A stretch of 64,000 bases of DNA from Bradyrhizobium barranii subsp. barranii (GTDB lineage: Bacteria > Pseudomonadota > Alphaproteobacteria > Rhizobiales > Xanthobacteraceae), in the NCBI RefSeq assembly GCF_017565645.3, contig NZ_CP086136.1, forward strand, positions 8,911,501-8,975,500, written 5' to 3'. This document shows positions 35,988-61,456 of the stretch, one piece after another; within the stretch, counting starts at the first letter, position 1; each line of letters starts with the position of its first letter. The notes below the pieces were generated by a model, which made no database searches, was not told where the DNA came from, and worked only from the letters and a program-made list of their open reading frames with translations. A program made the translations under genes and the position numbers.

Positions 35988-37538
35988 ATGGCGCTTCGCC
36001 CCGAAGATCTCCCCTCTGACCCTGCGGCTCTTGCCGAGATGGTGCTGGCTTTCGAAGGCGAGAACGATGATCTGCGCGCAGAGATCGCCACGTTGAAGAG
36101 CCTGATCTTCGGCGCACGATCGGAGCGCGCGGCGATCGTCTGCGCCGAACAGATCGCGTTTGATCTGGAACGGACCGCCGGCTCACAGCTCCCGGCCAAT
36201 GACGACAAACCGGACGCGCCGCGGCCGGAGCGGCGCAAAGCGAAGCGCAACATCGGCGCGCTGCCGGCGCATCTGCCTCGGGTCGAGCGGGTGATCGAGC
36301 CGGCGTCCACGCTGTGCCCGTGCTGCACGGGTCAGATGCATCGGATCGGCGAGGAGAGCAGCGAAGCGCTCGATCGGGTTCCCGCGTGGCTGCGTGTGCT
36401 CCGCACGATCCGTCCAAAATACGCCTGCCGCTCCTGTGAGGGCCCGATTGTCCAGGCCCCGGCACCGGCGCGGCTCGTCGAGGGCGGCATGGCAACGACG
36501 GCGCTGATCGCGCATATCGCCGCGGCCAAATATGCCTGGCAATCGACGCTCTATCGCCAGACGCAGATCCTGGCGGGTCAGGGTGTCGTCGTCGACCGTC
36601 AGACGCTGGCGCGCTGGATGGGGAGCGCGGCGTGGCTGGTCAGGGGCCTCTACGATCTGCAACTGAAGACTATGCACGGCTTCGAGCGGCTGTTCTGCGA
36701 CGAGACGCCGATGCCAGTGCTCGATCCGGGACGCGGCCGCACGAGGATCTGCCAGTTCTGGGCGCACGCGACGGACGATCGGGCGTGGAAGGGGCCGGCG
36801 CCGCCGGCGGTCGCCTACGTGTTCGCAGGTGGTCGCGGCAAAAAGGAGATCGTGGCGCAGTTAGCCGGCTTCGAAGGCGTGCTGCAAGTCGACGGCTATG
36901 CCGCCTACGCCTCGCTGGCGGGCGATGCGATGATGTCGGGCCAGATCCAGCTGGCGTATTGTCTCGTTCACGCGCGCCGCAACTTCGTGAGGGTGCACAA
37001 GACGACGAACTCACCCTTCGCCGCGGAGGTCATCGAGCGCATTGCGGCCGTCTACGCGATCGAGGAGAGGATCCGCGGTCTCGATGCTGGGGAACGCCGC
37101 GCGACGCGACAGGCCGAGACGAAGCCGCTGATGGAGGCGTTGAGGGCCCGTCTGATCGCGGTGAAGGACGGGATCTCCCGCCGCTCGACGCTCATCAAGG
37201 CGATCGACTACATGCTCGAACGCTGGCAGGGCCTGACGACGTTCCTGGATGACGGGCGGCTCGAGCCGGACACCAACACGGTCGAACGATCGATCAGGCC
37301 AATTGCGATCGGAAAAAAGAACTCGTTGTTCAGTGGTGACGAAGGCGGGGGCGAGACCTGGGCGATACTCGCTTCGCTTCTTAACACAGCGAAATTGAAT
37401 GGCCTCGACCCCGAGGCGTATCTCGTCGACGTTCTCGATCGCATGGTGAGCGGCGCCACGAAGACCAACCAGCTTCACGAACTTCTGGCCTGGAACTGGA
37501 AGGCCGCACGCGAAGCCGAAAAGCGGGCCGTGGCATGA
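35988..37538 (+). CDS. tnpC: IS66 transposase TnpC, copy 1
   Basis: 516-residue DDE transposase. An N-terminal coiled coil (about 10-40) precedes a zinc-binding segment CPCCTGQMHRIGEE and CRSCEGPIVQAPAP, then the catalytic region with CDETPMPVLDPG, LQVDGYAAY and NTVERSIRPIAIGKKNSLF. Full length. Confidence 0.95.
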   Translation: MALRPEDLPSDPAALAEMVLAFEGENDDLRAEIATLKSLIFGARSERAAIVCAEQIAFDLERTAGSQLPANDDKPDAPRPERRKAKRNIGALPAHLPRVERVIEPASTLCPCCTGQMHRIGEESSEALDRVPAWLRVLRTIRPKYACRSCEGPIVQAPAPARLVEGGMATTALIAHIAAAKYAWQSTLYRQTQILAGQGVVVDRQTLARWMGSAAWLVRGLYDLQLKTMHGFERLFCDETPMPVLDPGRGRTRICQFWAHATDDRAWKGPAPPAVAYVFAGGRGKKEIVAQLAGFEGVLQVDGYAAYASLAGDAMMSGQIQLAYCLVHARRNFVRVHKTTNSPFAAEVIERIAAVYAIEERIRGLDAGERRATRQAETKPLMEALRARLIAVKDGISRRSTLIKAIDYMLERWQGLTTFLDDGRLEPDTNTVERSIRPIAIGKKNSLFSGDEGGGETWAILASLLNTAKLNGLDPEAYLVDVLDRMVSGATKTNQLHELLAWNWKAAREAEKRAVA

Positions 37539-39000: not shown

Positions 39001-39651
39001 CTACGCACCGCGCTTGAAGCGTATAGGCATCCAGAACTGCCGGAGGGCCTCGACGGTTGCTGGAATGTTGCGCCAGGCGTTTTGGATGATGGGCTGCGTT
39101 CCCAGCGTGCGCCGGGCCGGGGGTAGCAAGGGTCGACCGGCGTCGTCGATGCAATGGACCAAGATCGGCCGCAGCATAAGGTGTTCGGTTCCATTCGGGG
39201 GGAGAAGCCGCGACCAGACGAGAAGCCGAAGCTTCATGACGGCGTAGAAGCCCATGCACCAGGGCTGCGGGTCGACTTCGCCGTCCGGTGATCGCACGAA
39301 CAGCGGCTCGAAGCTCTCCGGTCTCGTCGACAGCGTCTCGCTGATAGCGTTGTGGCGCATCAGCGTGGCGGCGATTGCCGAGAACTCCTCGGTGTCGTGA
39401 TTGAAGGCGTCGGGATCTACGCCGAGGAGCGGGCACACCCATTCCTCGGACGCCATCGAGACCGGCCCGGCGACGACCGCGGCCACCGCGCCATCGAGCA
39501 TGGAGAGCGACGTCGCCCGCGGATGCCGAAGCGTCGGCGACCTGGCGCGCTTGCTGATCCATTGCCCGAGCCGTTCGAACGACATGGCATAGTCCGCCAT
39601 CGTCGTCTTGCGTGCTTTTCGCGTTCCCCGCCCTTGCTTCGGCTTCGTCAT
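39001..39651 (-). CDS. UPF0149 (YecA-like) passenger protein of IS66, copy 2
   Basis: Same 216-residue protein as in copy 1, again overlapping tnpC by 4 bases. No change visible. Confidence 0.8.
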   Translation of the reverse strand: MTKPKQGRGTRKARKTTMADYAMSFERLGQWISKRARSPTLRHPRATSLSMLDGAVAAVVAGPVSMASEEWVCPLLGVDPDAFNHDTEEFSAIAATLMRHNAISETLSTRPESFEPLFVRSPDGEVDPQPWCMGFYAVMKLRLLVWSRLLPPNGTEHLMLRPILVHCIDDAGRPLLPPARRTLGTQPIIQNAWRNIPATVEALRQFWMPIRFKRGA

Positions 39652-41198
39652 GCCACGGCCCGCTTTTCGGCTTCGCGTGCGGCCTTCCAGTTCCAGGCCA
39701 GAAGTTCGTGAAGCTGGTTGGTCTTCGTGGCGCCGCTCACCATGCGATCGAGAACGTCGACGAGATACGCCTCGGGGTCGAGGCCATTCAATTTCGCTGT
39801 GTTAAGAAGCGAAGCGAGTATCGCCCAGGTCTCGCCCCCGCCTTCGTCACCACTGAACAACGAGTTCTTTTTTCCGATCGCAATTGGCCTGATCGATCGT
39901 TCGACCGTGTTGGTGTCCGGCTCGAGCCGCCCGTCATCCAGGAACGTCGTCAGGCCCTGCCAGCGTTCGAGCATGTAGTCGATCGCCTTGATGAGCGTCG
40001 AGCGGCGGGAGATCCCGTCCTTCACCGCGATCAGACGGGCCCTCAACGCCTCCATCAGCGGCTTCGTCTCGGCCTGTCGCGTCGCGCGGCGTTCCCCAGC
40101 ATCGAGACCGCGGATCCTCTCCTCGATCGCGTAGACGGCCGCAATGCGCTCGATGACCTCCGCGGCGAAGGGTGAGTTCGTCGTCTTGTGCACCCTCACG
40201 AAGTTGCGGCGCGCGTGAACGAGACAATACGCCAGCTGGATCTGGCCCGACATCATCGCATCGCCCGCCAGCGAGGCGTAGGCGGCATAGCCGTCGACTT
40301 GCAGCACGCCTTCGAAGCCGGCTAACTGCGCCACGATCTCCTTTTTGCCGCGACCACCTGCGAACACGTAGGCGACCGCCGGCGGCGCCGGCCCCTTCCA
40401 CGCCCGATCGTCCGTCGCGTGCGCCCAGAACTGGCAGATCCTCGTGCGGCCGCGTCCCGGATCGAGCACTGGCATCGGCGTCTCGTCGCAGAACAGCCGC
40501 TCGAAGCCGTGCATAGTCTTCAGTTGCAGATCGTAGAGGCCCCTGACCAGCCACGCCGCGCTCCCCATCCAGCGCGCCAGCGTCTGACGGTCGACGACGA
40601 CACCCTGACCCGCCAGGATCTGCGTCTGGCGATAGAGCGTCGATTGCCAGGCATATTTGGCCGCGGCGATATGCGCGATCAGCGCCGTCGTTGCCATGCC
40701 GCCCTCGACGAGCCGCGCCGGTGCCGGGGCCTGGACAATCGGGCCCTCACAGGAGCGGCAGGCGTATTTTGGACGGATCGTGCGGAGCACACGCAGCCAC
40801 GCGGGAACCCGATCGAGCGCTTCGCTGCTCTCCTCGCCGATCCGATGCATCTGACCCGTGCAGCACGGGCACAGCGTGGACGCCGGCTCGATCACCCGCT
40901 CGACCCGAGGCAGATGCGCCGGCAGCGCGCCGATGTTGCGCTTCGCTTTGCGCCGCTCCGGCCGCGGCGCGTCCGGTTTGTCGTCATTGGCCGGGAGCTG
41001 TGAGCCGGCGGTCCGTTCCAGATCAAACGCGATCTGTTCGGCGCAGACGATCGCCGCGCGCTCCGATCGTGCGCCGAAGATCAGGCTCTTCAACGTGGCG
41101 ATCTCTGCGCGCAGATCATCGTTCTCGCCTTCGAAAGCCAGCACCATCTCGGCAAGAGCCGCAGGGTCAGAGGGGAGATCTTCGGGGCGAAGCGCCAT
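39648..41198 (-). CDS. tnpC: IS66 transposase TnpC, copy 2
   Basis: 516 residues, same sequence as copy 1, all catalytic segments present. Likely active or only recently immobile. Confidence 0.95.
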   Translation of the reverse strand: MALRPEDLPSDPAALAEMVLAFEGENDDLRAEIATLKSLIFGARSERAAIVCAEQIAFDLERTAGSQLPANDDKPDAPRPERRKAKRNIGALPAHLPRVERVIEPASTLCPCCTGQMHRIGEESSEALDRVPAWLRVLRTIRPKYACRSCEGPIVQAPAPARLVEGGMATTALIAHIAAAKYAWQSTLYRQTQILAGQGVVVDRQTLARWMGSAAWLVRGLYDLQLKTMHGFERLFCDETPMPVLDPGRGRTRICQFWAHATDDRAWKGPAPPAVAYVFAGGRGKKEIVAQLAGFEGVLQVDGYAAYASLAGDAMMSGQIQLAYCLVHARRNFVRVHKTTNSPFAAEVIERIAAVYAIEERIRGLDAGERRATRQAETKPLMEALRARLIAVKDGISRRSTLIKAIDYMLERWQGLTTFLDDGRLEPDTNTVERSIRPIAIGKKNSLFSGDEGGGETWAILASLLNTAKLNGLDPEAYLVDVLDRMVSGATKTNQLHELLAWNWKAAREAEKRAVA

Positions 41199-44148: not shown

Positions 44149-44304
44149 CGCCACAGATGCTCACGTTTCATCTGTCGGCCGCCTGTTGGACAAGTGCGGC
44201 ATAGCGAGTGCGAATAGACAGGCAGCTGCAACAAGGCACTCGGCTGCAAAGACGTCTGGCTGAACGGTCGGAGCTCAGATTGGACAAGGGACGTGCACAG
44301 TTCG

Positions 44305-45318
44305 ATGGAACCGCTCAAGTCGATCATCGCGAAAGTTGCCACGGGCGCCATACTGACGCGCGAGGAGGCTGCGTCAGCGTTCGACAGCATGATGTCGGGT
44401 GACGCAACTCCCTCGCAGATCGGTGGCTTGTTGATTGGGATGAGAGTCCGCGGCGAAACAGTCGAAGAAGTCACCGGCGCCGCGTCCGCAATGCGGAATT
44501 TAATGCCCAAGGTGGAAATGCAATGCGACCCCATCGATATCACTGGTGCGAGCGACGGGGCGATGCGTCCGCTCAACGTATCGACGTGCGCTTCCTTCAT
44601 CGTCGCCGGGGCCGGCGTTCCTGTCGCCAAGTATGTTAACCGCGCTGCGACTTTGCGTTCAAGCACCGCAGACGTGTTGGCGAGTCTAGGCGTAAAGGTC
44701 GATCTCAAGCCTGATGCGATCGCACGTTGTGTGCACGAAGCCGGCATTGGCTTCATGTTTGCGTCAGCCGGCTATCCTGCGATGCAGCGCATCAGCCAGA
44801 TCCGAAGCGTGCTTGGAACCCACACAATGTTCAATCTGATCGAGGCTTTGTCTAATCCGGCCGGCGTCAAGCGGCAGATCCTTGGAGTTTTCGCTCGCAA
44901 ATGGGTGCAGCCATTGGCGTACGTCTTGAAGAACCTGGGTGCCGATTCGGTATGGGTTGTTCATGGCTCGGACGGGCTCGATGAAATATCCCTCGCCGGG
45001 ACAAGCTTTGTTGCTGCGGTCGAGGCCGGTACAGTCCGCACGTTCGAAGTGACGCCGGAAGAAGCCGGGCTCCCCCGCTACCGCGCCGATGCGCTGGAGA
45101 GCTGTGATTGCGAGTCTCATGCCATTGCGTTAGAGAAAGTGCTCGACGGCCTCCCAGGCCCTTTTCGTGATGCCGCACTTTTGAACGCGGCGGCGGCACT
45201 GGTGGTGGCCGGTCGTGCCTCGAACCTACAGCAAGGCGTGGCACTTGGCCAAGAATCACTTGATCACGGCGCTGCAGCCGCCCGGCTGACTCGCTTGATT
45301 GCGGTTTCAAACGCCTAA
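44305..45318 (+). CDS. TrpD-like anthranilate phosphoribosyltransferase paralog, motif-degenerate
   Basis: 337 residues of the anthranilate phosphoribosyltransferase family (glycosyltransferase family 3). The N-terminal helical domain and the overall length are normal ([32 protein letters not shown]). The PRPP-binding loop, normally GTGGD followed by TFNIST, reads [15 protein letters not shown], and the KHGNRAVSSKSGSAD block reads [15 protein letters not shown]. The loss of the double glycine and the histidine suggests altered substrate or reduced classical activity. No other trp gene is nearby, so it is unlikely to serve tryptophan synthesis; it might attach phosphoribose to another aromatic acid. 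The ATG at 44305 is used; a GTG 12 bases upstream is possible. Confidence 0.82.
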
Positions 45319-46594: not shown

Positions 46595-46876
46595 TTGGCA
46601 GGCTGGAGCAGCAAGTTGAAAGACCGCGATGGCCTTAAGAAGGTCCTGTTAGTTCATCATGTTGAAGGCCAGTGCCGTTGCATCATCGGTTTCAAAGATG
46701 GAGATATGAGAGCGGCCTATATGTGCGGCGAGCCTGTATATCAAAAACGCGGCAAGAAGACCTCTTCGTGGTGTGCCGATCATTACCGGAAGATGCACAC
46801 CGCAGCTGAGCAGAGCGGAGTGATCGATCGATCGGCAGATTTCCCTCGAGCGATATCCATCGTTCGCACCCCATGA
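46595..46876 (+). CDS. Small protein with GcrA-like cysteine module
   Basis: 93 residues from a TTG (start uncertain; another TTG at 46616). The central part CRCIIGFKDGDMRAAYMCGE and KKTSSWCADHYRKMH arranges Cys/His like the C-terminal zinc-ribbon-type module of GcrA regulators (CxxPxG ... FCG ... YCxxH). The N-terminal DNA-binding part of GcrA is missing. It may be a small regulatory protein or a remnant. Assignment is tentative. Confidence 0.45.
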   Translation: MAGWSSKLKDRDGLKKVLLVHHVEGQCRCIIGFKDGDMRAAYMCGEPVYQKRGKKTSSWCADHYRKMHTAAEQSGVIDRSADFPRAISIVRTP

Positions 46877-47169
46877 CAGCCATTAAAAGCAGGCTTCCGC
46901 CAAGACCGTGTGAGCACAGCCTGTACAAGCGCCAGCCGAAGCATATGACCGGGGCCTCGTCAGGATTTGGGGGGCCGTTGCGGGTGGCGCAAACAGAATG
47001 CGCGGACCTGACACGCATGAATAGCAAGCTGAATTTTTCCACCCCGGCCGAGGGAAGCGCTACCTATACCTTTGACAAGACCGCGATTCATTTCGAACGG
47101 AAGCCGTCCAGCTATGTCATCCTCAATCGATACATTGAGCGGATCGCTCGCGCCTTGGAGAGCCAGTTT

Positions 47170-47390
47170 GGTGCCCTGAGAGGAGCCCGACTCGAGATCC
47201 CCAGCCTCGCCGGCGACAATGGACACTGCGAGGCCGATGGATCTATTCCGCTTCACCGCGGCAAAACAACTCTCGATTATTTCAAGCGAGAATATCTTTC
47301 CAGCAAGAATAGAGCGAGTGCTTACGGAACATCCAAATGTAGCCGAATGCTGGTCGGTCGAGCCGTTGCTCGATGGGAAGACGCACCCGC
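47170..47390 (+). pseudogene. Fragment of an AMP-forming acyl-CoA synthetase
   Basis: One frame gives GDNGHCEADGSIPLHR, matching the GDIGxxDADGxLxxxxR hinge of adenylate-forming enzymes, and a second frame continues with RFTAAKQLSIISSENIFPAR and IERVLTEHPNVAECWSV, the C-terminal subdomain with its conserved ENI-P motif. Only about 70 codons survive, with a frameshift between the parts, and the rest of the gene is absent. Confidence 0.65.
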
Positions 47391-47679
47391 CGCTTATGTG
47401 ACCAAGCGGCGGCGACTGCCGGATCGAGGCGCAAGCGCTGATCGCCCATGTTTGGTCAGAGCCCGTTTATCGGGCTCTGCGAGATCATTTCATACGCGGC
47501 CGAGCCATAAATTGAGATCGGCAGATTCGAGGCGGGCCGTTCTCTCCCGCTGCATCGCAGGTGACATCGAGATGGCGCAAATTCTCCCCTCTCCCAGAGC
47601 CTTGCCACGGCATGGCAACGACTTCGTGGTTGCCATGACGATCCCATCCTGATCACGACCAGATGTCCGGAGGTCGAGA

Positions 47680-48990
47680 ATGCCGCGAATCCTGATTATG
47701 AATGCCGGTACGCCTCAGATGTCGGGCGCCCACCTAACAAAAGCTCAACTTTCGCTGGCCGCCAACTCGGCATTTCGTTCAGCGTGGTTTGCTCAGGAGG
47801 GCGACCTGATAGTCTCTCCGGTAGTGATCCCGGCCGATCTGTTATCCTTCATTGGCGGAACGCTCAATTTCCATTCATCGGCTCTTCGCCTGCTTGTACC
47901 TGCGAGCCGCCAATCGACAATCCTCGATGATTGTACGTTACTGTCCAAAACTGTTGTCGAGCGGCTCAAAAGACATATTCGCCAGAAATCAGACTGGCAA
48001 TTGTATCCCTGCTACTCTACTGAAGGCGTCGCACGCTTGGCGGCCATTCTAGGCATACCGAAGACCGGTGACGACTTCGCTTTGCAGCGCGGGCCTGATC
48101 TGTTGAATCGCAAGAGCCACTTCCGTCAATTGGCAACAAGCGTTGCACTTCCGCTCCCCCATGGATCAGTCGCGACAGACCCAAATGGACTGTTCAAAGC
48201 CGTCACCTCCCTCAAATCCGAGACCGGCAGGGTCATTGTAAAGTTGGATAATGGAGCTGGTGGAGTTGGAAACGTCATCCTGACCAGCAATAAGAGCGAT
48301 CCGCTACCTGGAGCCAGAGATACTCGGTGGGTTTCGTGGCCGTCGTTTGATCCCGAAGCATTGTGGTCTGAGATGACAACAGCCTCGTGTAAGACGCTGG
48401 TCGTGGAATCGTACCACTTGGCCCGATCTTTATTCTATCTCGAGTATACAATCCAGGATGATGCATCAATCGCTTTTGTCAATAGTGGAAGCATACGTCT
48501 GCGTAAAAGCGCAGACCGATCCGAAAGAGCTCTGATCTGGACGGGACTTGAGCTTCCAAGCGACTTGGAGGACGAGCAATTGTTAGCTGCCCAGGCCCAT
48601 GCCTACCGTTTTGTGGCACTCGCGCGAGACCTGGGGTATCGCGGAATGATCAACATCGACGCCATTTTCGCACAAGACGGGCGGTTGCTGTTCAATGAAG
48701 CGAACGGCCGCTGGGGTGGCGGCTCGGTGTTACACAACATTGCCGTCCGGCTGCTAGGCGTCGACTATTTCGGCTGTAACGTTATTTTATCTGTGAGAAA
48801 TGTGCGATCAGCATCCTTCCGGGCGGCGCATGATCGTCTCGTCAAGGATGGACTTATATTCGACCACACACGTAAGGAGGGCGTGATCCCGCTTGCTGCC
48901 GATGAAAAGGCTGGCACTGTGGAGTGCGTTGTGATTGCGCCGAACAGGCCCGCGGCCCACGATCAGCAACACCGACTATTGAAGTCGTAG
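47680..48990 (+). CDS. ATP-grasp peptide-ligase-like enzyme (PGM1-type)
   Basis: 436 residues. An N-terminal pre-ATP-grasp region (about 1-130) is followed by an ATP-grasp fold: KLDNGAGGVGNVIL (about 190-203) resembles the glycine-rich nucleotide loop, and NIDAIFAQDGRLLFNEANGR plus WGGGS carries the metal-binding Asp/Glu/Asn. This pattern is that of PGM1-related ligases, which join amino acids or peptides using ATP with an acyl-phosphate intermediate. GGAGG lies 6 bases before the ATG. No ligase partner is adjacent; the oxygenase genes 3-6 kb away on the other strand could belong to the same pathway. Substrates are unknown. Confidence 0.75.
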   Translation: MPRILIMNAGTPQMSGAHLTKAQLSLAANSAFRSAWFAQEGDLIVSPVVIPADLLSFIGGTLNFHSSALRLLVPASRQSTILDDCTLLSKTVVERLKRHIRQKSDWQLYPCYSTEGVARLAAILGIPKTGDDFALQRGPDLLNRKSHFRQLATSVALPLPHGSVATDPNGLFKAVTSLKSETGRVIVKLDNGAGGVGNVILTSNKSDPLPGARDTRWVSWPSFDPEALWSEMTTASCKTLVVESYHLARSLFYLEYTIQDDASIAFVNSGSIRLRKSADRSERALIWTGLELPSDLEDEQLLAAQAHAYRFVALARDLGYRGMINIDAIFAQDGRLLFNEANGRWGGGSVLHNIAVRLLGVDYFGCNVILSVRNVRSASFRAAHDRLVKDGLIFDHTRKEGVIPLAADEKAGTVECVVIAPNRPAAHDQQHRLLKS

Positions 48991-49055: not shown

Positions 49056-50454
49056 GAGCTATGGCGGAATCTGGGTGATGACGGTGTGAGGAAGGCGGCG
49101 TATCGAGGCGGGTGACGAGCCTGCCAGAACCTCTCGAGGAGAGCGATACGCCATGACCGAGACTACCAATGTTCTTGCTTTCCGTCAGCCGTCCGCGGTT
49201 GATGATCCACTGACCGATATCGTTCGAGCCGGCGCGCGGGACCTGCTTGCCAGGGCGATCGAGATCGAGGTTGGCGCGTTTCTGGCCAGCAAGGCCAATC
49301 TGACGCTGCCCGACGGTCGAGCGCGCCTGGTCCGACATGGGCACGGTCCGGTGCGCGAGATTGCGACCGGCATCGGTCCGGTGGAGGTCGCTCGTCCCAA
49401 GGTCCGCGACCGCGGAGCGAGCGGGCCAGGCGACCGCCTCCGCTTCAGTTCGGCAATCCTGCCGCTATGGGCGCGGCGGACGAAGAGCCTGGATGCCTTG
49501 ATCCCGGTCCTCTATTTGCGCGGCATCTCGACCGGCGACTTCCAGGAGGCGCTCTCGGCGCTGCTCGGCAAGGATGCGCCGAACCTGTCGCCTTCGGTGA
49601 TCGCCGGCCTGAAGGCCGATTGGCAGGTCGAGTACGAACGCTGGCAGAGACGCGATCTGTCGGCGCGTCGCTATGTCTACATCTGGGCCGATGGCGTGTA
49701 CCTGCAGGCCCGCATGGAAGATCACAGCGAATGCATGCTGGTGCTGATTGGCACCACGCCGGAAGGCAAGAAGGAGCTGATCGGCTTCCAGGTCGGCGTG
49801 CGCGAGAGCGCGCAGAGCTGGCGCGAACTCCTGATCGACCTGCGGCAACGCGGGTTACGGATTGCCCCGCAACTCGCCATCGGCGACGGCGCCCTCGGCT
49901 TCTGGAAGGCACTGGACGAGGCCTTTCCCGGCACGCGGCACCAACGATGCTGGTGCCATAAAGTGAGCAACGTACTCGACAAGGTCGCCAAATCCGTGCA
50001 GGGCCCCATGAAGAACGACCTGCGGAACATCTATCTGGCCCCACACCGGGCCGAAGCTGAAACCGCGATCGACGTCTTCGTCGAGAAATACCACGTCAAA
50101 TACGGACGTGCGGTGGAGTGCCTGATCAAGGATCGCCATGCGCTGCTCGCCTTCTTCGACTTCCCTGCTGAGCACTGGATCCACCTACGCAGCTCGAACC
50201 CGATCGAGAGCGTCTTCGCCACGGTGCGCCACCGAACGGTGCGGACCAAGGGATCGCTGTCGCAACAAACTGCGAAGCTGATGGTGTTCAAGCTCATCGA
50301 CGCCGCATCGAAGACCTGGCGGCGATTGAAGAGCACGAACCAGTTGCCGAAAGTCATCGCCGGTGTAAAGTTCATCGACGGAATCGAAGTCATTCCGAAC
50401 ACTGAAAGCCACGCCGCCTGATCAGGCCGCGTCACCCAAAATCAGCCATAGCTC
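49056..50454 (+). mobile_element. IS256-family element, 8-bp target duplication
   Basis: 1399 bp bounded by CCGGGAAC at 49048-49055 and 50455-50462. The ends GAGCTATGGCGGAATCTGGG and (inverted) GAGCTATGGCTGATTTTGGG are near-perfect inverted repeats. One gene. Confidence 0.94.
49153..50421 (+). CDS. IS256-family (Mutator-type) transposase
   Basis: 422 residues with the DDE residues in YIWADGVYLQA, AIGDGALGFWKAL and SNPIESVFATVRHRT, and the conserved RHQRCWCHKVSNVLDK block. Intact; the element inserted only 65 bases downstream of the ATP-grasp gene without disrupting it. Confidence 0.95.
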   Translation: MTETTNVLAFRQPSAVDDPLTDIVRAGARDLLARAIEIEVGAFLASKANLTLPDGRARLVRHGHGPVREIATGIGPVEVARPKVRDRGASGPGDRLRFSSAILPLWARRTKSLDALIPVLYLRGISTGDFQEALSALLGKDAPNLSPSVIAGLKADWQVEYERWQRRDLSARRYVYIWADGVYLQARMEDHSECMLVLIGTTPEGKKELIGFQVGVRESAQSWRELLIDLRQRGLRIAPQLAIGDGALGFWKALDEAFPGTRHQRCWCHKVSNVLDKVAKSVQGPMKNDLRNIYLAPHRAEAETAIDVFVEKYHVKYGRAVECLIKDRHALLAFFDFPAEHWIHLRSSNPIESVFATVRHRTVRTKGSLSQQTAKLMVFKLIDAASKTWRRLKSTNQLPKVIAGVKFIDGIEVIPNTESHAA

Positions 50455-51877: not shown

Positions 51878-52555
51878 CTAGGGCCGAGCGTTAGAACCCT
51901 CGATGATCCGGCGGATCACGCCGCTGCGTTTTGAACAGAAGTATACGAGGGATCGGCGCTCCCCGCTTGATACCGGCTTTACCTCATGCCGGACCTTACA
52001 GGTTGTGACAAGCACAGCGCCAAATGGCGGCCGGAATACGTGTTGTTCGTACCCGGTTGGATATACCACGAATTCACCGCCGTCGAAGTCTCTCGCTAGC
52101 TGCACAATCACCGAGTACTCGAAATCCGGATCACTCGCCGCATCCAAATGAATGCCGATAAAGGACCCCGGCGGCATACGATGCATCTGGCATCGGCGAA
52201 CCACGTAATCTGCGGATGCTCCGAAGATCTTTCTTAGCGCGAAGCTGCGATCTCTACTTTCGAGCAGCTCCATGATCTGACCCGAAGCAGTACCACTCAC
52301 GTTGCTAGGCGCGTGGCCGGGCGGGTCTACCCTCACGCGCTGGACAAAGACGCTGTGCAAGTCGCCCGCATCTCCCTCCCGCACTTCTTCTTCCGGAATC
52401 TCAGCCTGCAGCTGATCGATCCTGGCTATGTCGTCTTGAGTGAATAACATTTGCGGGGCGATTACGACGGACCCCTTTACTAGCAGCTCAATCCGGTACT
52501 TTGTCAGGACTTCTTCTGAAAGAAGACAGGATTTATCTTTCATTGCGCGCGCCAT
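51878..52555 (-). CDS. 2-oxoglutarate/Fe(II)-dependent oxygenase
   Basis: 225 residues. The double-stranded beta-helix carries the iron ligands HxD in FIGIHLDAASDPDFEYSV and the distal His in CKVRHEVKPV, with the Arg in SSGERRSLVYF as the 2-oxoglutarate anchor. Prolyl-4-hydroxylase-like enzymes of this type hydroxylate amino acids, peptides or small molecules. Its start overlaps the end of the GFA-containing gene by 16 bases, so the two are one operon, with the oxygenase last. The substrate is unknown; free amino-acid or ligase-made peptide is possible given the ATP-grasp gene nearby. Confidence 0.87.
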   Translation of the reverse strand: MARAMKDKSCLLSEEVLTKYRIELLVKGSVVIAPQMLFTQDDIARIDQLQAEIPEEEVREGDAGDLHSVFVQRVRVDPPGHAPSNVSGTASGQIMELLESRDRSFALRKIFGASADYVVRRCQMHRMPPGSFIGIHLDAASDPDFEYSVIVQLARDFDGGEFVVYPTGYEQHVFRPPFGAVLVTTCKVRHEVKPVSSGERRSLVYFCSKRSGVIRRIIEGSNARP

Positions 52556-53763
52556 TCGAGCTCACTCCTTTGATCTTCGAAGCATGACTCCGGGTCCTGC
52601 TGCATTGACAGGAATGCTTGCTCCCAATGCGCGCCATCGAACTCAGATATTCTTAAGTGCTCGATGGTCTTTCTATCCAGACATCGGATATTTACGCTGT
52701 ACCCGGAGGGATTCGACCTCGGCCTATAGAATGGCTTTACGCCACAAAGCCGGCAAAACGTGTGCCGCGCAATATTCTTGTTGAACTGGTATGTCGTGAG
52801 GAACTCTTCGCCGCACTCGATGCGCAGCTTATCGCCAGGTACGAGCAAGTGGACAAATCCAGACATTTGACAAATTGAGCAATTGCATCGAACTGCAGAG
52901 AGCTCTCGAGGTGCATTGACGTAGAATTTGATAGCGCCGCAATGACAACGGCCATGATGTTGCATCTCGGAGTGATCATCTCCCGTACGCGCCGCCGTTC
53001 CGAGCAGATCGCGACACCACTGGACGCTGAGCCGATAGGCTCGGCCGAATTCATTCAAAAAGCGATCATTAAGGCCAGGCTGCACAAGTTCACCAATCAG
53101 CCGGCCTGTCATTTCTCCGTGGTACTTCTCCGCGGGATCTTCTCCGCCGACATGGCCGCGAAAATACTCAAGATCGTCCGGCCGCGCCTTGAAGGTTTTG
53201 ACCAGAGTGGTCCACAGCGACTGGATCATGTCTGCAGCATGGAGCTCAAAGGCGACCATGTAGGCGCAACGAACCAGGGGGTCTTTCGATGACAATCCGG
53301 CATAGAGAGAATGCAGGTACTGCTTCGTCCTGTCGCTATAGTTGGGCCTTATCGCTCTGCCGAGTAGTCATGCAGCATCCTTTCTCAAGAGGTTGGAGTG
53401 AAAGTTTTCTGTCAAAAGAATATCGGGCAACGCCGCCTTGCCGCCCCGGAGAATCCCGCCATGGCCACCGGTCTCATCCCAGCAGATAAAATTCGCGACC
53501 ACGCTGGTCAGTTCAATGTCCCTCCCAATGTCCCGATTTTGATGCATTGCATCGAATATGAGGTCCCTTTGCGACCCTGCCTGCAGGTACGGGAACGCCT
53601 GTGACATCGCTAGGTATTCAGGCAGCAGGCTGGCGACCTGGTCTCCGGACATCTGGGAGGCGAACGGATGCGGGCCGAACAAGGCTCGCACTCGCTCAGT
53701 CAAGTACTCGCAGGATAACTTCGGAGGCTGATCCGGTGCAAATCGAGACGCTTGAGATATCAT
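52540..53763 (-). pseudogene. Heme-oxygenase-like diiron protein joined to a GFA domain, with an in-frame TGA
   Basis: A single frame of 407 codons with one TGA at 53368-53370. The part before it (131 codons: YLAMSQAFPYLQAG, DIELTSVVANFICWDETGGH, LTENFHSNLLRKD) and the part after it (LLGRAIRPNYSDRTKQYL, MVAFELHAADMIQSLW, HVGGEDPAEKYHGEMT) together make a heme-oxygenase-like diiron oxidase/oxygenase (HDO) domain; candidate ligands are the Glu in DIELT, Glu/His in FELHA and the His-Glu-His of HVGGEDPAEKYH. The same frame continues, from an internal ATG at 52965, into a glutathione-dependent formaldehyde-activating (GFA) zinc domain (GRCHCGAIKF, CNCSICQMSG, CRLCGVKPFY). With TGA read as stop, only the second piece could be made from a TTG with no ribosome-binding site. 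GFA alone might still be translated from 52965. Confidence 0.75.
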
Positions 53764-54344
53764 TTGACTCCCTGCAGATGAGAAGCGAAACGGTCCTTGA
53801 CGAAGCTACCTTCATGTCCGGGCCGACTATTGACCGCGCTGAGTTCATTGGCTTCAAAGGGCCTAATGTTGCGTTCACCTTTCACGCAAACTTTCGTCGT
53901 TCTCCTGGCCACGGCAGATTGCGGTCTTCTCTGTCCTGGTCATGCGCATCGAAGGGACTTCGTTCATTGAGGGAGCGGCGAGGATCCGGTTGGCTTCCAG
54001 TCCAGCAGCAATCCGATGCCGCAATGGCAGCCACGGCGAGCATGCGCGCGGAGAATCGTCTTGGATACTTCGCCGCGCATGCCATTCTGATGCTAATGCC
54101 GCATGCGCGAATGACACGCCTAGTCGCGCGGTGCAGCTTTGGCTTCCTGAGCAAATGAATGAAGCCCTCGCGGTTGCTGCTGCCGCCATTTCATCGAACC
54201 GCTGTCAACTTGGTACAGCATTGTAAAATCCAATTCGTGCCTACCGACCTCACAGGGCCTCAGGTCGTTCGTGGCATGCCGCTCGCCTGTTCTTCGCATT
54301 CGCGGTTACCCCCTCTTAATTTTTACTGGCTAACAGCAACCATC
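53764..54344. other. Region upstream of the HDO gene, no supported gene
   Basis: About 580 bases with overlapping low-quality frames only. A -24/-12-like sequence TGGCATGCCGCTCGCC (GG and GC 10 bases apart) occurs at 54273 pointing to the small frame at 54345, but the -12 element is poor. Confidence 0.35.
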
Positions 54345-54524
54345 ATGCCAACTCTTGAATTTGCTCCGTCAGATTCCGAAGAAGCTGGTATAACACTTGT
54401 GACCTATCCTCATAGCAAGTGCATAGCACTTGAGAGGCTGCGCACCGCCGTCAGGAACGAAACAGCGGCTGTTCACATACACACGGCTGCTGAATTGGCG
54501 GATTGCTTCAAAGGCGCCGCATAG
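54345..54524 (+). CDS. Possible small protein
   Basis: 59 residues from MPTLEFAPSDSEEAGITLVT, continuing to VHIHTAAELADCFKGAA. Balanced composition and a plausible fold, but there is no Shine-Dalgarno sequence and no family. A further frame from 54585 (MVTRVADVFRLCSRPVRRKQ) would be 79 codons if the IS66 copy at 54799 is removed; it may be a second small gene cut by that element. Confidence 0.35.
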   Translation: MPTLEFAPSDSEEAGITLVTYPHSKCIALERLRTAVRNETAAVHIHTAAELADCFKGAA

Positions 54525-54846: not shown

Positions 54847-55497
54847 CTACGCACCGCGCTTGAAGCGTATAGGCATCCAGAACTGCCGGAGGGCCTCGAC
54901 GGTTGCTGGAATGTTGCGCCAGGCGTTTTGGATGATGGGCTGCGTTCCCAGCGTGCGCCGGGCCGGGGGTAGCAAGGGTCGACCGGCGTCGTCGATGCAA
55001 TGGACCAAGATCGGCCGCAGCATAAGGTGTTCGGTTCCATTCGGGGGGAGAAGCCGCGACCAGACGAGAAGCCGAAGCTTCATGACGGCGTAGAAGCCCA
55101 TGCACCAGGGCTGCGGGTCGACTTCGCCGTCCGGTGATCGCACGAACAGCGGCTCGAAGCTCTCCGGTCTCGTCGACAGCGTCTCGCTGATAGCGTTGTG
55201 GCGCATCAGCGTGGCGGCGATTGCCGAGAACTCCTCGGTGTCGTGATTGAAGGCGTCGGGATCTACGCCGAGGAGCGGGCACACCCATTCCTCGGACGCC
55301 ATCGAGACCGGCCCGGCGACGACCGCGGCCACCGCGCCATCGAGCATGGAGAGCGACGTCGCCCGCGGATGCCGAAGCGTCGGCGACCTGGCGCGCTTGC
55401 TGATCCATTGCCCGAGCCGTTCGAACGACATGGCATAGTCCGCCATCGTCGTCTTGCGTGCTTTTCGCGTTCCCCGCCCTTGCTTCGGCTTCGTCAT
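54847..55497 (-). CDS. UPF0149 (YecA-like) passenger protein of IS66, copy 3
   Basis: Same 216-residue protein as in copies 1 and 2, coupled to tnpC. Confidence 0.8.
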   Translation of the reverse strand: MTKPKQGRGTRKARKTTMADYAMSFERLGQWISKRARSPTLRHPRATSLSMLDGAVAAVVAGPVSMASEEWVCPLLGVDPDAFNHDTEEFSAIAATLMRHNAISETLSTRPESFEPLFVRSPDGEVDPQPWCMGFYAVMKLRLLVWSRLLPPNGTEHLMLRPILVHCIDDAGRPLLPPARRTLGTQPIIQNAWRNIPATVEALRQFWMPIRFKRGA

Positions 55498-57044
55498 GCC
55501 ACGGCCCGCTTTTCGGCTTCGCGTGCGGCCTTCCAGTTCCAGGCCAGAAGTTCGTGAAGCTGGTTGGTCTTCGTGGCGCCGCTCACCATGCGATCGAGAA
55601 CGTCGACGAGATACGCCTCGGGGTCGAGGCCATTCAATTTCGCTGTGTTAAGAAGCGAAGCGAGTATCGCCCAGGTCTCGCCCCCGCCTTCGTCACCACT
55701 GAACAACGAGTTCTTTTTTCCGATCGCAATTGGCCTGATCGATCGTTCGACCGTGTTGGTGTCCGGCTCGAGCCGCCCGTCATCCAGGAACGTCGTCAGG
55801 CCCTGCCAGCGTTCGAGCATGTAGTCGATCGCCTTGATGAGCGTCGAGCGGCGGGAGATCCCGTCCTTCACCGCGATCAGACGGGCCCTCAACGCCTCCA
55901 TCAGCGGCTTCGTCTCGGCCTGTCGCGTCGCGCGGCGTTCCCCAGCATCGAGACCGCGGATCCTCTCCTCGATCGCGTAGACGGCCGCAATGCGCTCGAT
56001 GACCTCCGCGGCGAAGGGTGAGTTCGTCGTCTTGTGCACCCTCACGAAGTTGCGGCGCGCGTGAACGAGACAATACGCCAGCTGGATCTGGCCCGACATC
56101 ATCGCATCGCCCGCCAGCGAGGCGTAGGCGGCATAGCCGTCGACTTGCAGCACGCCTTCGAAGCCGGCTAACTGCGCCACGATCTCCTTTTTGCCGCGAC
56201 CACCTGCGAACACGTAGGCGACCGCCGGCGGCGCCGGCCCCTTCCACGCCCGATCGTCCGTCGCGTGCGCCCAGAACTGGCAGATCCTCGTGCGGCCGCG
56301 TCCCGGATCGAGCACTGGCATCGGCGTCTCGTCGCAGAACAGCCGCTCGAAGCCGTGCATAGTCTTCAGTTGCAGATCGTAGAGGCCCCTGACCAGCCAC
56401 GCCGCGCTCCCCATCCAGCGCGCCAGCGTCTGACGGTCGACGACGACACCCTGACCCGCCAGGATCTGCGTCTGGCGATAGAGCGTCGATTGCCAGGCAT
56501 ATTTGGCCGCGGCGATATGCGCGATCAGCGCCGTCGTTGCCATGCCGCCCTCGACGAGCCGCGCCGGTGCCGGGGCCTGGACAATCGGGCCCTCACAGGA
56601 GCGGCAGGCGTATTTTGGACGGATCGTGCGGAGCACACGCAGCCACGCGGGAACCCGATCGAGCGCTTCGCTGCTCTCCTCGCCGATCCGATGCATCTGA
56701 CCCGTGCAGCACGGGCACAGCGTGGACGCCGGCTCGATCACCCGCTCGACCCGAGGCAGATGCGCCGGCAGCGCGCCGATGTTGCGCTTCGCTTTGCGCC
56801 GCTCCGGCCGCGGCGCGTCCGGTTTGTCGTCATTGGCCGGGAGCTGTGAGCCGGCGGTCCGTTCCAGATCAAACGCGATCTGTTCGGCGCAGACGATCGC
56901 CGCGCGCTCCGATCGTGCGCCGAAGATCAGGCTCTTCAACGTGGCGATCTCTGCGCGCAGATCATCGTTCTCGCCTTCGAAAGCCAGCACCATCTCGGCA
57001 AGAGCCGCAGGGTCAGAGGGGAGATCTTCGGGGCGAAGCGCCAT
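55494..57044 (-). CDS. tnpC: IS66 transposase TnpC, copy 3
   Basis: 516 residues, same sequence as copies 1 and 2; full catalytic set. Confidence 0.95.
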   Translation of the reverse strand: MALRPEDLPSDPAALAEMVLAFEGENDDLRAEIATLKSLIFGARSERAAIVCAEQIAFDLERTAGSQLPANDDKPDAPRPERRKAKRNIGALPAHLPRVERVIEPASTLCPCCTGQMHRIGEESSEALDRVPAWLRVLRTIRPKYACRSCEGPIVQAPAPARLVEGGMATTALIAHIAAAKYAWQSTLYRQTQILAGQGVVVDRQTLARWMGSAAWLVRGLYDLQLKTMHGFERLFCDETPMPVLDPGRGRTRICQFWAHATDDRAWKGPAPPAVAYVFAGGRGKKEIVAQLAGFEGVLQVDGYAAYASLAGDAMMSGQIQLAYCLVHARRNFVRVHKTTNSPFAAEVIERIAAVYAIEERIRGLDAGERRATRQAETKPLMEALRARLIAVKDGISRRSTLIKAIDYMLERWQGLTTFLDDGRLEPDTNTVERSIRPIAIGKKNSLFSGDEGGGETWAILASLLNTAKLNGLDPEAYLVDVLDRMVSGATKTNQLHELLAWNWKAAREAEKRAVA

Positions 57045-58071: not shown

Positions 58072-58938
58072 CTAACATTGCCCGGACAGTCCAGATCGGG
58101 CGTCACGAGCAAGTGTCGCCAGATCGGTTTCGAGCTTCGGTTGATTCAAGAAGATTGCGTCTATTAGCGCCTGCGCCGGCTGCTCGGCGGACTCAACCAG
58201 CGCCGCCCTCTCGGCCCGCGCAGGGGGAGCGAACACACGTTTGACGACAGTCGGCGAGCCCTTGAGCCCACATTTGGAGATGTCTTCGACACCTGCATCT
58301 TGCGCGCTCCATTTCACGATTTTGGCTCGCGCGGCACGCAAGGCATCCGCCATCGCGCCTCGCCGAATCTGATTCGTCGCCTCAAGCATGGTGATGAGGC
58401 AGGGCAACCTAGTGTGCAGAACCTGCACACCGCCTTCCGAGCGCCGCTCCGCTTCAATTGTTTCATTGGCGACGTCCACGGATCTGACCTTCGCAACGTA
58501 AGTTAGCTGCCCTACGCCCAGTCGCTTCGCGATGCCAGGACCAACCTGCGCTGTATCGCCGTCGATGGTCTGCTTTCCGGTGAAGATGAGGTTTGCCGGA
58601 CCATATGCCTTGCCAATTTTCCGGATCGCTGTTGCAAGCGCATACGTAGTGGCCAGCGTATCCGAGCCCGCAAAGCAGCGATCAGTAAGTAGGACGGCGC
58701 GATCAGCACCATAAGTCAGCGCCTTTCGCAACGACTCCTCTGCCGATGGCGGCCCCATGGTAAGCACGGTAATTTCGCCACCGAACCGATCGCGCAGCCC
58801 CAGCGCGGCCTCGAGCGCGAATAGGTCATACGGGTTGATGATGGTCGGCACTCCCTGACGCATGATTGTATTGGTCACGGGGTGCACGCGGATCTGCGCC
58901 GAGTCCGGAACTTGCTTGATGCAGACAATATTATGCAA
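58072..58938 (-). CDS. fixA: FixA, electron-transfer flavoprotein beta-type subunit
   Basis: 288-residue FixA, partner of FixB in the FixABCX complex that bifurcates electrons from NADH to ferredoxin/flavodoxin for nitrogenase. Family blocks: IVCIKQVPDSAQIRVHP, INPYDLFALEAALGLRD, TVLTMGPPSAEESLRKAL, YGADRAVLLTD, FTGKQTIDGDTAQVGPGIA. Full length. It lies downstream of nifA as in B. japonicum, with 517 bases between and its own -24/-12 promoter. fixBCX are not adjacent; an IS66 element begins about 110 bases after the stop. Confidence 0.96.
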   Translation of the reverse strand: MHNIVCIKQVPDSAQIRVHPVTNTIMRQGVPTIINPYDLFALEAALGLRDRFGGEITVLTMGPPSAEESLRKALTYGADRAVLLTDRCFAGSDTLATTYALATAIRKIGKAYGPANLIFTGKQTIDGDTAQVGPGIAKRLGVGQLTYVAKVRSVDVANETIEAERRSEGGVQVLHTRLPCLITMLEATNQIRRGAMADALRAARAKIVKWSAQDAGVEDISKCGLKGSPTVVKRVFAPPARAERAALVESAEQPAQALIDAIFLNQPKLETDLATLARDARSGLSGQC

Positions 58939-59455: not shown

Positions 59456-61204
59456 TCAGAACCGCTTTATCTCGATTCCGTATTTCCTCAGCGCGTAGCC
59501 GACTTGGCGCGGGGTTAGCCCGAGTAGGCGCGCTGCCTTGGCCTGCACCCAGCCAGACTTTTCCATAGCCGCAACGACCCGCTCGCGATCAGCCATTCTC
59601 GCACCACTAACGAGAACTGTGCCGGAAGGTGCCAATGAGCCCGGTTCGCAGACAGCCTGCGGCGGAGGGGCCGTTTCAGCCAGCGGGATGATGGACTTTG
59701 CAGGCACCGGTTGCATCGGTGCCGCCGGGTCTGTCTTGCCATACGATGTGCTTTTCCAAAGCGTCGTGGAAAGGCATTGGCCTTGGCTGCATGCAAAGTC
59801 ACTTCTTACAATCGATGATCCGGCACTGAGTGTCGCGGTCCGCTCGATGCAGTTCTCGAGTTCGCGGACATTTCCCGGAAATTTACAGCTCATCAGTACA
59901 TCGATCGCACTCGCCTCCAGAGTAAGAGAGCGGCCGTTCTCGCTGTTAAACTTTCTGAGGAACTCTCTTGCGAGCAGCGGAATATCACTGCGTCTTTCGC
60001 GAAGCGGCGGCAACAACAAGGGAACTACGCTAATACGATAGTAGAGGTCCGCGCGGAATTCGCTCCTTGCCACAGCCTCTTCAAGGTTCCTGTTGGTCGC
60101 AGCTATCACCCGAACATCGACTTTAATCGTGTGATTGCTGCCGACGCGCTCGAACTCCTGCTCTTGCAGAACTCGCAGCAACTTCGCCTGGAACGGAGGT
60201 GAGATCTCTCCGATCTCGTCAAGAAATAGCGTCCCTTTGTCAGCAAGCTCGAAGCGCCCCTTGCGGGCGCTGACAGCACCGGTAAAGGCACCTTTCTCAT
60301 GGCCAAACAATTCCGATTCCAGGACCGTCTCGGGGAGCGCCGCGCAATTCAGCTTAACGAACGGCCGCTTAGCACGAACGGACGACTCGTGAATGGCCTT
60401 GGCTACCAGCTCCTTCCCGGTACCGGATTCGCCACGCAGCAGAACCGTGCTGTTTGATCTGGCTACAACGACAATCTTCTCAAGCAGTGCGCTCAGCGCC
60501 GGGCTGTCGCCAATGATCCCGTGTGCCTGAAGCTGCTTGCGCTCGCGAGCGGGCGGCCCACGATCAACTGCCTGTTTCTCTAGCCGGTCCTTGTCCACCA
60601 ACGATTGTTCGCGATCGCCGGCGAACAAGCGATGTAACTTGATCGTTTGTCCTATCACGTTCGCGACCATGGCGAGCAGCCGCGCGTCGTACTCGAGAAG
60701 ACTTGAACTGCCTTCCGGGATACGGTCGATCGTCAGCGTACCAACGACCGTCGAATCAACGCGAATCGGGACCCCGATGAACGCTACCGGTATACTATCA
60801 GAGGCGCCGAGAACCTCCCGGTCGGCAGCGCTGAAGGCCGTCTCGGCGGCTACATTCTCGACCATAAGAGACCTGCCTGTCGCTACGATCTCGTGGATTG
60901 CTTTCTGCGGCACGCACGTCCGGTAACGTTCGTCAGTGCCTTCGCTCCAGCCGGCGCCAACTGTAAGTTCTGGAACGCCGTCATCGTTGAACAGCGAGAC
61001 GAGGCCGTGTCGCATCTGCACAAACGATTGCAGAAGACCGAGAACGTTGGCCAAGGTGACTTCGAGCCGGCCGGGAGCATTTAGTATTTTCGATATTTCG
61101 TAGATGCCGGCCAGCGCGCTCTCATGCGACGGCTCCCCCGGGGGGGCACGCTCCGGTTCCGGCTGCGAGGCAGGTCTTTCGCTCGAGGAGGGGATATGCA
61201 GCAT
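59456..61204 (-). CDS. nifA: NifA, sigma54-dependent activator of nitrogen fixation
   Basis: 582 residues from MLHIPSSSERPASQ, the length of B. japonicum NifA; the frame is open 23 codons further but this start matches the known protein. Domains: GAF (about 25-185), AAA+ ATPase (about 225-455) with Walker A GESGTGKE at 258-265 and the sigma54-contacting GAFTGA at 305-310, an interdomain linker, and a Fis-type helix-turn-helix at the C-terminus (AAKAARLLGLTPRQVGYAL). The oxygen-responsive motif C-x11-C-x19-C-x4-C is complete at C440, C452, C472 and C477, so activity should be lost in oxygen. It activates nif, fix and groESL promoters. Cotranscribed with fixR, 252 bases downstream of it. Confidence 0.97.
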   Translation of the reverse strand: MLHIPSSSERPASQPEPERAPPGEPSHESALAGIYEISKILNAPGRLEVTLANVLGLLQSFVQMRHGLVSLFNDDGVPELTVGAGWSEGTDERYRTCVPQKAIHEIVATGRSLMVENVAAETAFSAADREVLGASDSIPVAFIGVPIRVDSTVVGTLTIDRIPEGSSSLLEYDARLLAMVANVIGQTIKLHRLFAGDREQSLVDKDRLEKQAVDRGPPARERKQLQAHGIIGDSPALSALLEKIVVVARSNSTVLLRGESGTGKELVAKAIHESSVRAKRPFVKLNCAALPETVLESELFGHEKGAFTGAVSARKGRFELADKGTLFLDEIGEISPPFQAKLLRVLQEQEFERVGSNHTIKVDVRVIAATNRNLEEAVARSEFRADLYYRISVVPLLLPPLRERRSDIPLLAREFLRKFNSENGRSLTLEASAIDVLMSCKFPGNVRELENCIERTATLSAGSSIVRSDFACSQGQCLSTTLWKSTSYGKTDPAAPMQPVPAKSIIPLAETAPPPQAVCEPGSLAPSGTVLVSGARMADRERVVAAMEKSGWVQAKAARLLGLTPRQVGYALRKYGIEIKRF

Positions 61205-61456
61205 AAGCCTGTCTCCGTTTCCTTGATCATCCTCCCTGGACCCATGTCCGGATTGGCGAGGTTCGTTTTGCATGTCACTCTCGATCTAGCGCCAAGTGTT
61301 GACGAGATGACATCGAACCGTGACACTTTTTCATGGCACGACAGTAAACTTGCCGTGTGCCTTCGATTCATTTTCTGTTGATTGTATGCGCGTGGTCAGC
61401 GGAGAACGTGAGTCCGTTGGGAAGCTCAAGTCAGCTTCGCCGCCGGGCCGGCCGCT
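61205..61456. other. fixR-nifA intergenic spacer
   Basis: 252 bases within the operon without a gene; the long spacer is also a known feature of the B. japonicum operon. No promoter was identified. Confidence 0.5.

Follow-up and report, generated by a model that had tools for sequence, protein, structure and literature searches.

A 64,000-nucleotide stretch of Bradyrhizobium barranii subsp. barranii (contig NZ_CP086136.1, positions 8,911,501 to 8,975,500; hereafter, the window) carries a minus-strand gene in which a part resembling the heme-oxygenase-like diiron oxygenases (HDOs) is fused to a GFA zinc domain. This architecture is real, conserved, and linked to nodulation, and it is undescribed as far as the open-licence literature shows: searches of open-licence papers found no description of the HDO-GFA combination, in keeping with an initial annotation of the window, made from its letters alone, that knew of no such pathway in a symbiosis island. 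That annotation also placed both domains in one frame without a stop between them, which was confirmed at 52540 to 53763 (minus strand; no strand had been given), and its domain calls were upheld by a profile match for GFA and by structure prediction. The uninterrupted 407-codon frame that it reported was not recovered, as codon 132, within the HDO part, is a TGA. The gene is composed of the following elements:

52540 to 53763, minus strand: HDO-GFA fusion gene, 407 codons, broken in this strain (the intact record is P0001)
52999 to 53712, minus strand: HDO-like (heme-oxygenase-like) domain, approximately residues 18 to 255, delimited by AlphaFold2, VIA-align, and conservation
52606 to 52959, minus strand: GFA (Mss4-like zinc) domain, approximately residues 269 to 386, with seven conserved cysteines
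53368 to 53370, minus strand: in-frame TGA, codon 132, within the HDO part
52540 to 53295, minus strand: 3′ open frame remaining after the stop (TTG start, 251 amino acids), covering the C-terminal half of the HDO part and the GFA part

A search over 5.8 billion proteins returned 190 matches, of which the best 120 were examined. The GFA region was covered by 64 of the 120 matches listed, among which identity fell to 44% for fusions from non-Bradyrhizobium or unassigned sources (taken as metagenomic). GTDB contigs scanned with an HDO-only alignment yielded 55 loci, 49 in Bradyrhizobium and 6 elsewhere. The same frame was kept in 48 of the 49 Bradyrhizobium loci, and a single tblastn match spanned both domains without an inner stop in 47 of them. 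The fusion is frameshifted in L083; the one stop at L067 was taken as terminal because a record of the same strain (P0027, 391 amino acids) carries PF04828. Between L076 and 7 chosen loci of the 47 intact ones, the ratio of nonsynonymous to synonymous substitution rates (dN/dS) was 0.16 to 0.22 for the HDO part, 0.14 to 0.23 for the GFA part, and 0.19 to 0.86 for the short linker. The frame kept in 48 of 49 loci and the low dN/dS in both domains argue that the fusion, judged from these alignments, is an old and selected architecture. The same two results (dN/dS of 0.14 to 0.23 across both domains) rule out a chance frame, and a local indel, which the initial annotation had considered as the origin of the join, is ruled out by the fused homologues and the common frame at the Bradyrhizobium loci. 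The 49 named loci overlap with the 22 genomes in which the fusion was counted (L077 and G058, for example), and the two counts are not independent. Two genomes hold altered copies: the fusion is in two pieces in G019, and G042 has the GFA piece only. One protein, P0067, joins the C-terminal part of the HDO, the GFA domain, and a 2-oxoglutarate (2OG) oxygenase in operon order. Across 398 sampled Pseudomonadota genomes, the HDO profile matched at E ≤ 1e-10 in three, all Bradyrhizobium. No relative of the fusion was found in the viral-contig scan; plasmids gave no DNA match, and none of the 186 plasmid records that matched by protein reached 80% query coverage.

The break at codon 132 appears to be local. 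The position is open in three genomes of the same genus (G005, G021, and G058) whose proteins are 100% identical as rounded by the tool, and the fusion frame is likewise open at L076 and L077. Apart from two insertions, the region is 99.6 to 99.9% identical to L076, L077, L092, and L093. Start-to-stop frames of 131 and 251 amino acids remain. Unless the TGA is a sequencing error, the window copy is a pseudogene, and the strain lacks a functional HDO part because the TGA breaks it. Selenocysteine insertion or read-through was set aside because the frame is open in the three copies that are identical after rounding. It is probable that the window gene is a mere relic and the TGA a true nonsense mutation, a reading compatible with any of the functions considered below for the wider family. 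The stop itself, the insertion sequences (IS) close by, and an AMP-binding remnant in the neighborhood favor a relic, whereas a sequencing error, or production of the GFA part from the 251-residue frame, would speak for something less than complete loss.

The heme-oxygenase-like fold of the HDO part was supported by AlphaFold2 structure prediction and by VIA-align, whose list covers only some HDOs, so that those missing from it are not excluded. Among the 120 matches listed (of 190), E173, H175, H204, and E212 were conserved in all 120, H215 in 119, H122 and D129 in 118, and E97 in 117; we infer a putative diiron site. The Pfam family Haem_oxygenas_2 (PF14518) matched 15 of 22 aligned fusions at E ≤ 0.01 but not P0001 itself; P0044 exceeded the curated cut-off of 28.9 (29.3), with P0063, P0077, and P0081 slightly below it. 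The fold and the conserved His/carboxylate set are shared with the HDO superfamily (CADD, UndA, PolF, HrmI, AetD, and SznF), from which the fusion differs by its C-terminal GFA domain.

The GFA part matched PF04828 over residues 269 to 365 (E = 5e-13; 49.6 bits versus a cut-off of 24.3), as did all 22 aligned fusions. Its seven conserved cysteines (C273, C275, C293, C295, C298, C337, and C340), which we take to form two zinc sites (4 + 3), are each Cys in 62 to 64 of the 64 GFA-covering sequences. The Pfam match, the seven cysteines, and the fold are common to the GFA family (Paracoccus Gfa, 1x6m; Rhodobacter 3fac); the difference is that here GFA forms the C-terminal domain of an oxygenase. 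The nearest long stand-alone GFA matches in the order (G084 and G095) were also considered, and their neighborhoods looked unrelated when frame starts were compared by eye.

The fusion is accompanied by a small set of genes beside fixA and nifA:

51878 to 52555, minus strand: 2OG-Fe(II) oxygenase (PF13640), overlapping the 3′ end of the fusion by 16 bases
47680 to 48990, plus strand: PGM1-type ATP-grasp ligase (PreAtp-grasp + PGM1_C), convergent to the fusion
46873 to 47652, plus strand: AMP-binding (acyl-CoA-synthetase-like) remnant, part of which resembles the N terminus of a gene that other Bradyrhizobium loci keep intact beside the ATP-grasp gene
58072 to 58938, minus strand: fixA, named from its translation, the first conserved gene on the upstream side of the operon
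59456 to 61273, minus strand: nifA, named from its translation, with conserved position
49057 to 50445: insertion between the 2OG and ATP-grasp genes, presumably IS256-like, absent in L076, L077, L092, and L093
54800 to 57959: insertion between fixA and the operon, presumably IS66-like, absent in the same four loci

The overlapping 2OG gene had been foreseen by the initial annotation and matched PF13640 with 41.2 bits (cut-off, 27). The metal-binding triad (H136-x-D138 and H190) and R200 did not vary among the 13 sequences aligned, and the H-x-D pair places the protein with the hydroxylase type. In G005 (C1:7052436-7053111), the 2OG gene lies in two overlapping pieces owing to a frameshift, while the fusion there is intact. 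The ATP-grasp gene and the fusion occurred in an identical set of 22 genomes out of 100, and the operon is restricted to nodC+ strains. PreAtp-grasp and PGM1_C domains are shared by this ligase with 8ynd, an ATP-grasp peptide ligase, and with PGM1, the pheganomycin peptide ligase. One Bradyrhizobium genome holds a second, distant ATP-grasp relative (26% identity; G010:C1:7432490-7433755), separated from the first by about 345 kb. An intact 520-residue AMP-binding gene (L036:13527-15095, L039:13924-15486) adjoins the ATP-grasp gene in 15 of 33 loci examined. The gene fixR, also named from its translation, lies upstream on the same strand, and the order fixR-nifA-fixA is conserved.

Upstream of the fusion is a candidate sigma-54 promoter:

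54335 to 54350, minus strand: sigma-54-type −24/−12 element, TGGCATGATGGTTGCT, approximately 590 bp upstream of the fusion

Of the 49 loci, 32 had such an element, placed 440 to 675 bp upstream of the HDO match (the rate in mononucleotide shuffles was 0.0005 per locus), and in 24 of these 32 a TGT-N10-ACA motif stood 50 to 150 bp above it. No upstream frame between promoter and fusion looked conserved when judged by eye. The portion of PMC4926349 used here gives a single log2 value each for blr2041 (−4.2) and blr2042 (−4.8), with fixA as blr2038; we take these values to belong to its nifA-mutant column. The operon may be NifA dependent. In Bradyrhizobium japonicum SEMIA 5079, BJS_07621 is described as a PF04828 protein that is genistein induced, has fixA as its closest fixation gene, and is read as a Gfa enzyme (PMC9069715, in part). 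Like the fusion, it lies in the symbiosis island near fixA, and it is very probably the same gene, although the sections of that paper drawn on here annotate it as Gfa only and leave an HDO part unmentioned.

Outside Bradyrhizobium, all six loci from the HDO-only scan encode a stand-alone HDO. In that of Legionella drozanskii (L081), the HDO is 48% identical to that of the fusion. Behind it on the same strand come genes for a desaturase, a PreAtp-grasp protein (28% identical to the ATP-grasp protein of the window), a permuted ATP-grasp-like protein, a 2OG enzyme of family PF10014, and a short-chain dehydrogenase/reductase; the opposite strand carries a Cys/Met pyridoxal phosphate (PLP) enzyme and then a stand-alone GFA, which BLASTP aligned with the fused domain over 115 residues at 51% identity. 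This neighborhood (L081:3852-12368) also includes a LuxR-type regulator. The permuted ATP-grasp gene was not found in 8 Bradyrhizobium genomes in a search run without a positive control, and the desaturases of L081 and G387 were not alike. At three loci of another genus (L101, L103, and L104, from G191, G508, and G532), a permuted ATP-grasp-like protein precedes a 2OG relative; two of these proteins were scanned without a noteworthy Pfam match, and one is homologous to L081:8047-9360 (23% identity; single-comparison E = 3e-45). Other stand-alone HDO genes have different companions. In Prochloron (L032:2550-3799) and an uncultured bacterium (L082:7816-8929), a small PF01588 tRNA-binding gene, presumably CsaA-like, follows within 120 bp, and in a gammaproteobacterial and a Legionellales metagenome-assembled genome (L078:9824-12192 and L079:9989-12384), the HDO is followed by a metallo-beta-lactamase-fold protein.

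A functional parallel is the Bes pathway (BesA to BesE) of Streptomyces cattleya, which makes a terminal-alkyne amino acid. In outline it employs the same kinds of enzyme as the locus studied here, where a 2OG hydroxylase with the fold of BesD accompanies an HDO and a ligase of the ATP-grasp type. By sequence, by the triad of its 2OG enzyme, and by its ligase, however, this set falls outside the Bes family. BesD-type lysine halogenases have a facial triad without a carboxylate, whereas the 2OG protein here has the hydroxylase-type H-x-D. The BesA model scored 23.7 bits against a cut-off of 750 for the ATP-grasp protein, which is closer to 8ynd and PGM1. The HDO part, here fused to GFA, has no sequence match to BesC, which was absent up to E = 10 among PDB sequences with P0001 and profile A1 as queries. 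BesC itself cleaves 4-chlorolysine, yielding an allylglycine together with ammonia and formaldehyde (PMC13108848, in part).

Starting from the observed fusion, predicted folds, conservation, co-occurrence, promoter element, and nonsense codon, we tentatively propose, at somewhat less than an even chance, that nodulating Bradyrhizobium possess a small pathway to a modified amino acid or amino-acid conjugate and that this locus is its core, locally broken. The 2OG enzyme would hydroxylate an amino acid, either free or in a closely related form, and the HDO half, as a diiron oxygenase, would then cleave the side chain in the manner of BesC, setting free a small aldehyde, in the simplest case formaldehyde. 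Having bound a thiol, the zinc domain of GFA would capture the aldehyde immediately as a thiol adduct, and the PGM1-type ATP-grasp enzyme would couple the product to a further amino acid or a carboxylate. Transcription of the operon would start from a sigma-54/NifA promoter in the nodule, and the HDO step would have been lost in this strain. Fusion to a GFA domain would be the expected arrangement were the HDO to free formaldehyde, an argument by analogy with BesC; diiron binding, the release, the capture, the order of steps, and the product are what we infer. In the abstract of PMC4682968, GFA is proposed as a possible carrier of glutathione to formaldehyde; such a carrier adjoining an aldehyde source would suit the fusion well. 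A bolder version, which we consider unlikely as a whole, is a diiron amino-acid lyase with a built-in formaldehyde trap: one polypeptide would fragment the side chain and pass the C1 unit to its zinc-thiol domain, within a NifA-controlled, Bes-like operon (2OG hydroxylase, HDO-GFA, and ATP-grasp ligase) yielding an unseen nodule metabolite restricted to nodulating Bradyrhizobium.

Several observations weigh against this aldehyde-releasing pathway. Many HDOs perform N-oxygenation or cyclisation, the HDO part has no sequence match to any solved HDO, and its predicted resemblance to BesC lies solely in the fold, where BesC stands no nearer to it than PolF or CADD. Its core helix 3 (alpha-3) has the spacing H-x7-E-x2-H, an apparent four-residue insertion relative to the H-x3-D-x2-H of known HDOs. 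Beside the Bradyrhizobium cluster, no BesB-like Cys/Met PLP enzyme came to notice, although no search was aimed at one. The co-occurrence of fusion and ATP-grasp is confounded by shared island linkage and common descent, and because several copies are broken (the window, the 2OG gene in G005, G019, and L083), the pathway is dispensable in some strains. The sigma-54 element is absent within 800 bp in 17 of 49 loci, no exact TGT-N10-ACA (upstream activating sequence) lies near that of the window, and the probable equivalence of blr2041 and blr2042 to the fusion and the 2OG gene is deduced from gene order and strand. Promoters before bjs_07621 are given as RpoD-like, not RpoN (PMC9069715, in part). 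According to the abstract of PMC4682968, the type GFA enzyme binds glutathione but did not catalyze adduct formation, so that GFA catalysis is disputed for the type enzyme. The suggestion of the initial annotation that the two domains act together is strengthened by the separate HDO and GFA genes in one L. drozanskii neighborhood, although these lie on opposite strands, 6.2 kb apart. The Legionella GFA (48% identical by tblastn) is hardly closer to the fused one than the unrelated stand-alone GFA of G084 (47%), so it is the shared neighborhood, not the level of identity, that supports a joint function.

Alternatively, the HDO half may behave like HrmI, RohS, or PolF and N-oxygenate, desaturate, or cyclize an amino acid, with GFA acting as a substrate- or thiol-binding lid or a remover of sulfur adducts, unrelated to formaldehyde. 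We regard this as possible but doubtful, given that the HDO-GFA tie, in the fusion and in the Legionella neighborhood, most simply means aldehyde chemistry and that the 2OG and ATP-grasp partners correspond in kind to those of the Bes set. The operon might instead shield bacteroids from an aldehyde or plant compound, with the 2OG enzyme and HDO degrading it, GFA handling the C1 unit, and nothing exported. GFA proteins are usually assigned to formaldehyde metabolism, and the genistein induction of the probable orthologue BJS_07621 behind RpoD-like promoters (PMC9069715, in part) would agree with detoxification; however, an ATP-grasp ligase of identical distribution suits synthesis better than breakdown, and the nodC+ restriction and NifA-type promoter suit a symbiotic product, making detoxification rather improbable.

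Validated functions are known for about a dozen HDOs (PMC13108848, in part), and a conserved HDO-GFA fusion that points to aldehyde handling offers a handle for finding the HDO reaction. The operon adjoins fixA-nifA in many nodulating Bradyrhizobium and is probably also present in a commercial soybean inoculant strain (BJS_07621; PMC9069715, in part). Where database annotation of its genes was examined, it read only "GFA," "2OG-Fe(II) oxygenase," "hypothetical," or similar. The operon makes the question of extra bacteroid metabolites testable.

Elsewhere in the window, transposase-like frames are crowded, some with identical translations (e.g., 35988-37538, 39648-41198, and 55494-57044). The island carries a second trpD (anthranilate phosphoribosyltransferase; window 44293-45318) in addition to a copy elsewhere in the genome, and nodC+ genomes that lack the operon have the island trpD as well. 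A short 87-residue frame (L050:14371-14634; window 46595-46876), which has no Pfam match and which we take to resemble part of GcrA, is kept in 29 of 33 loci.
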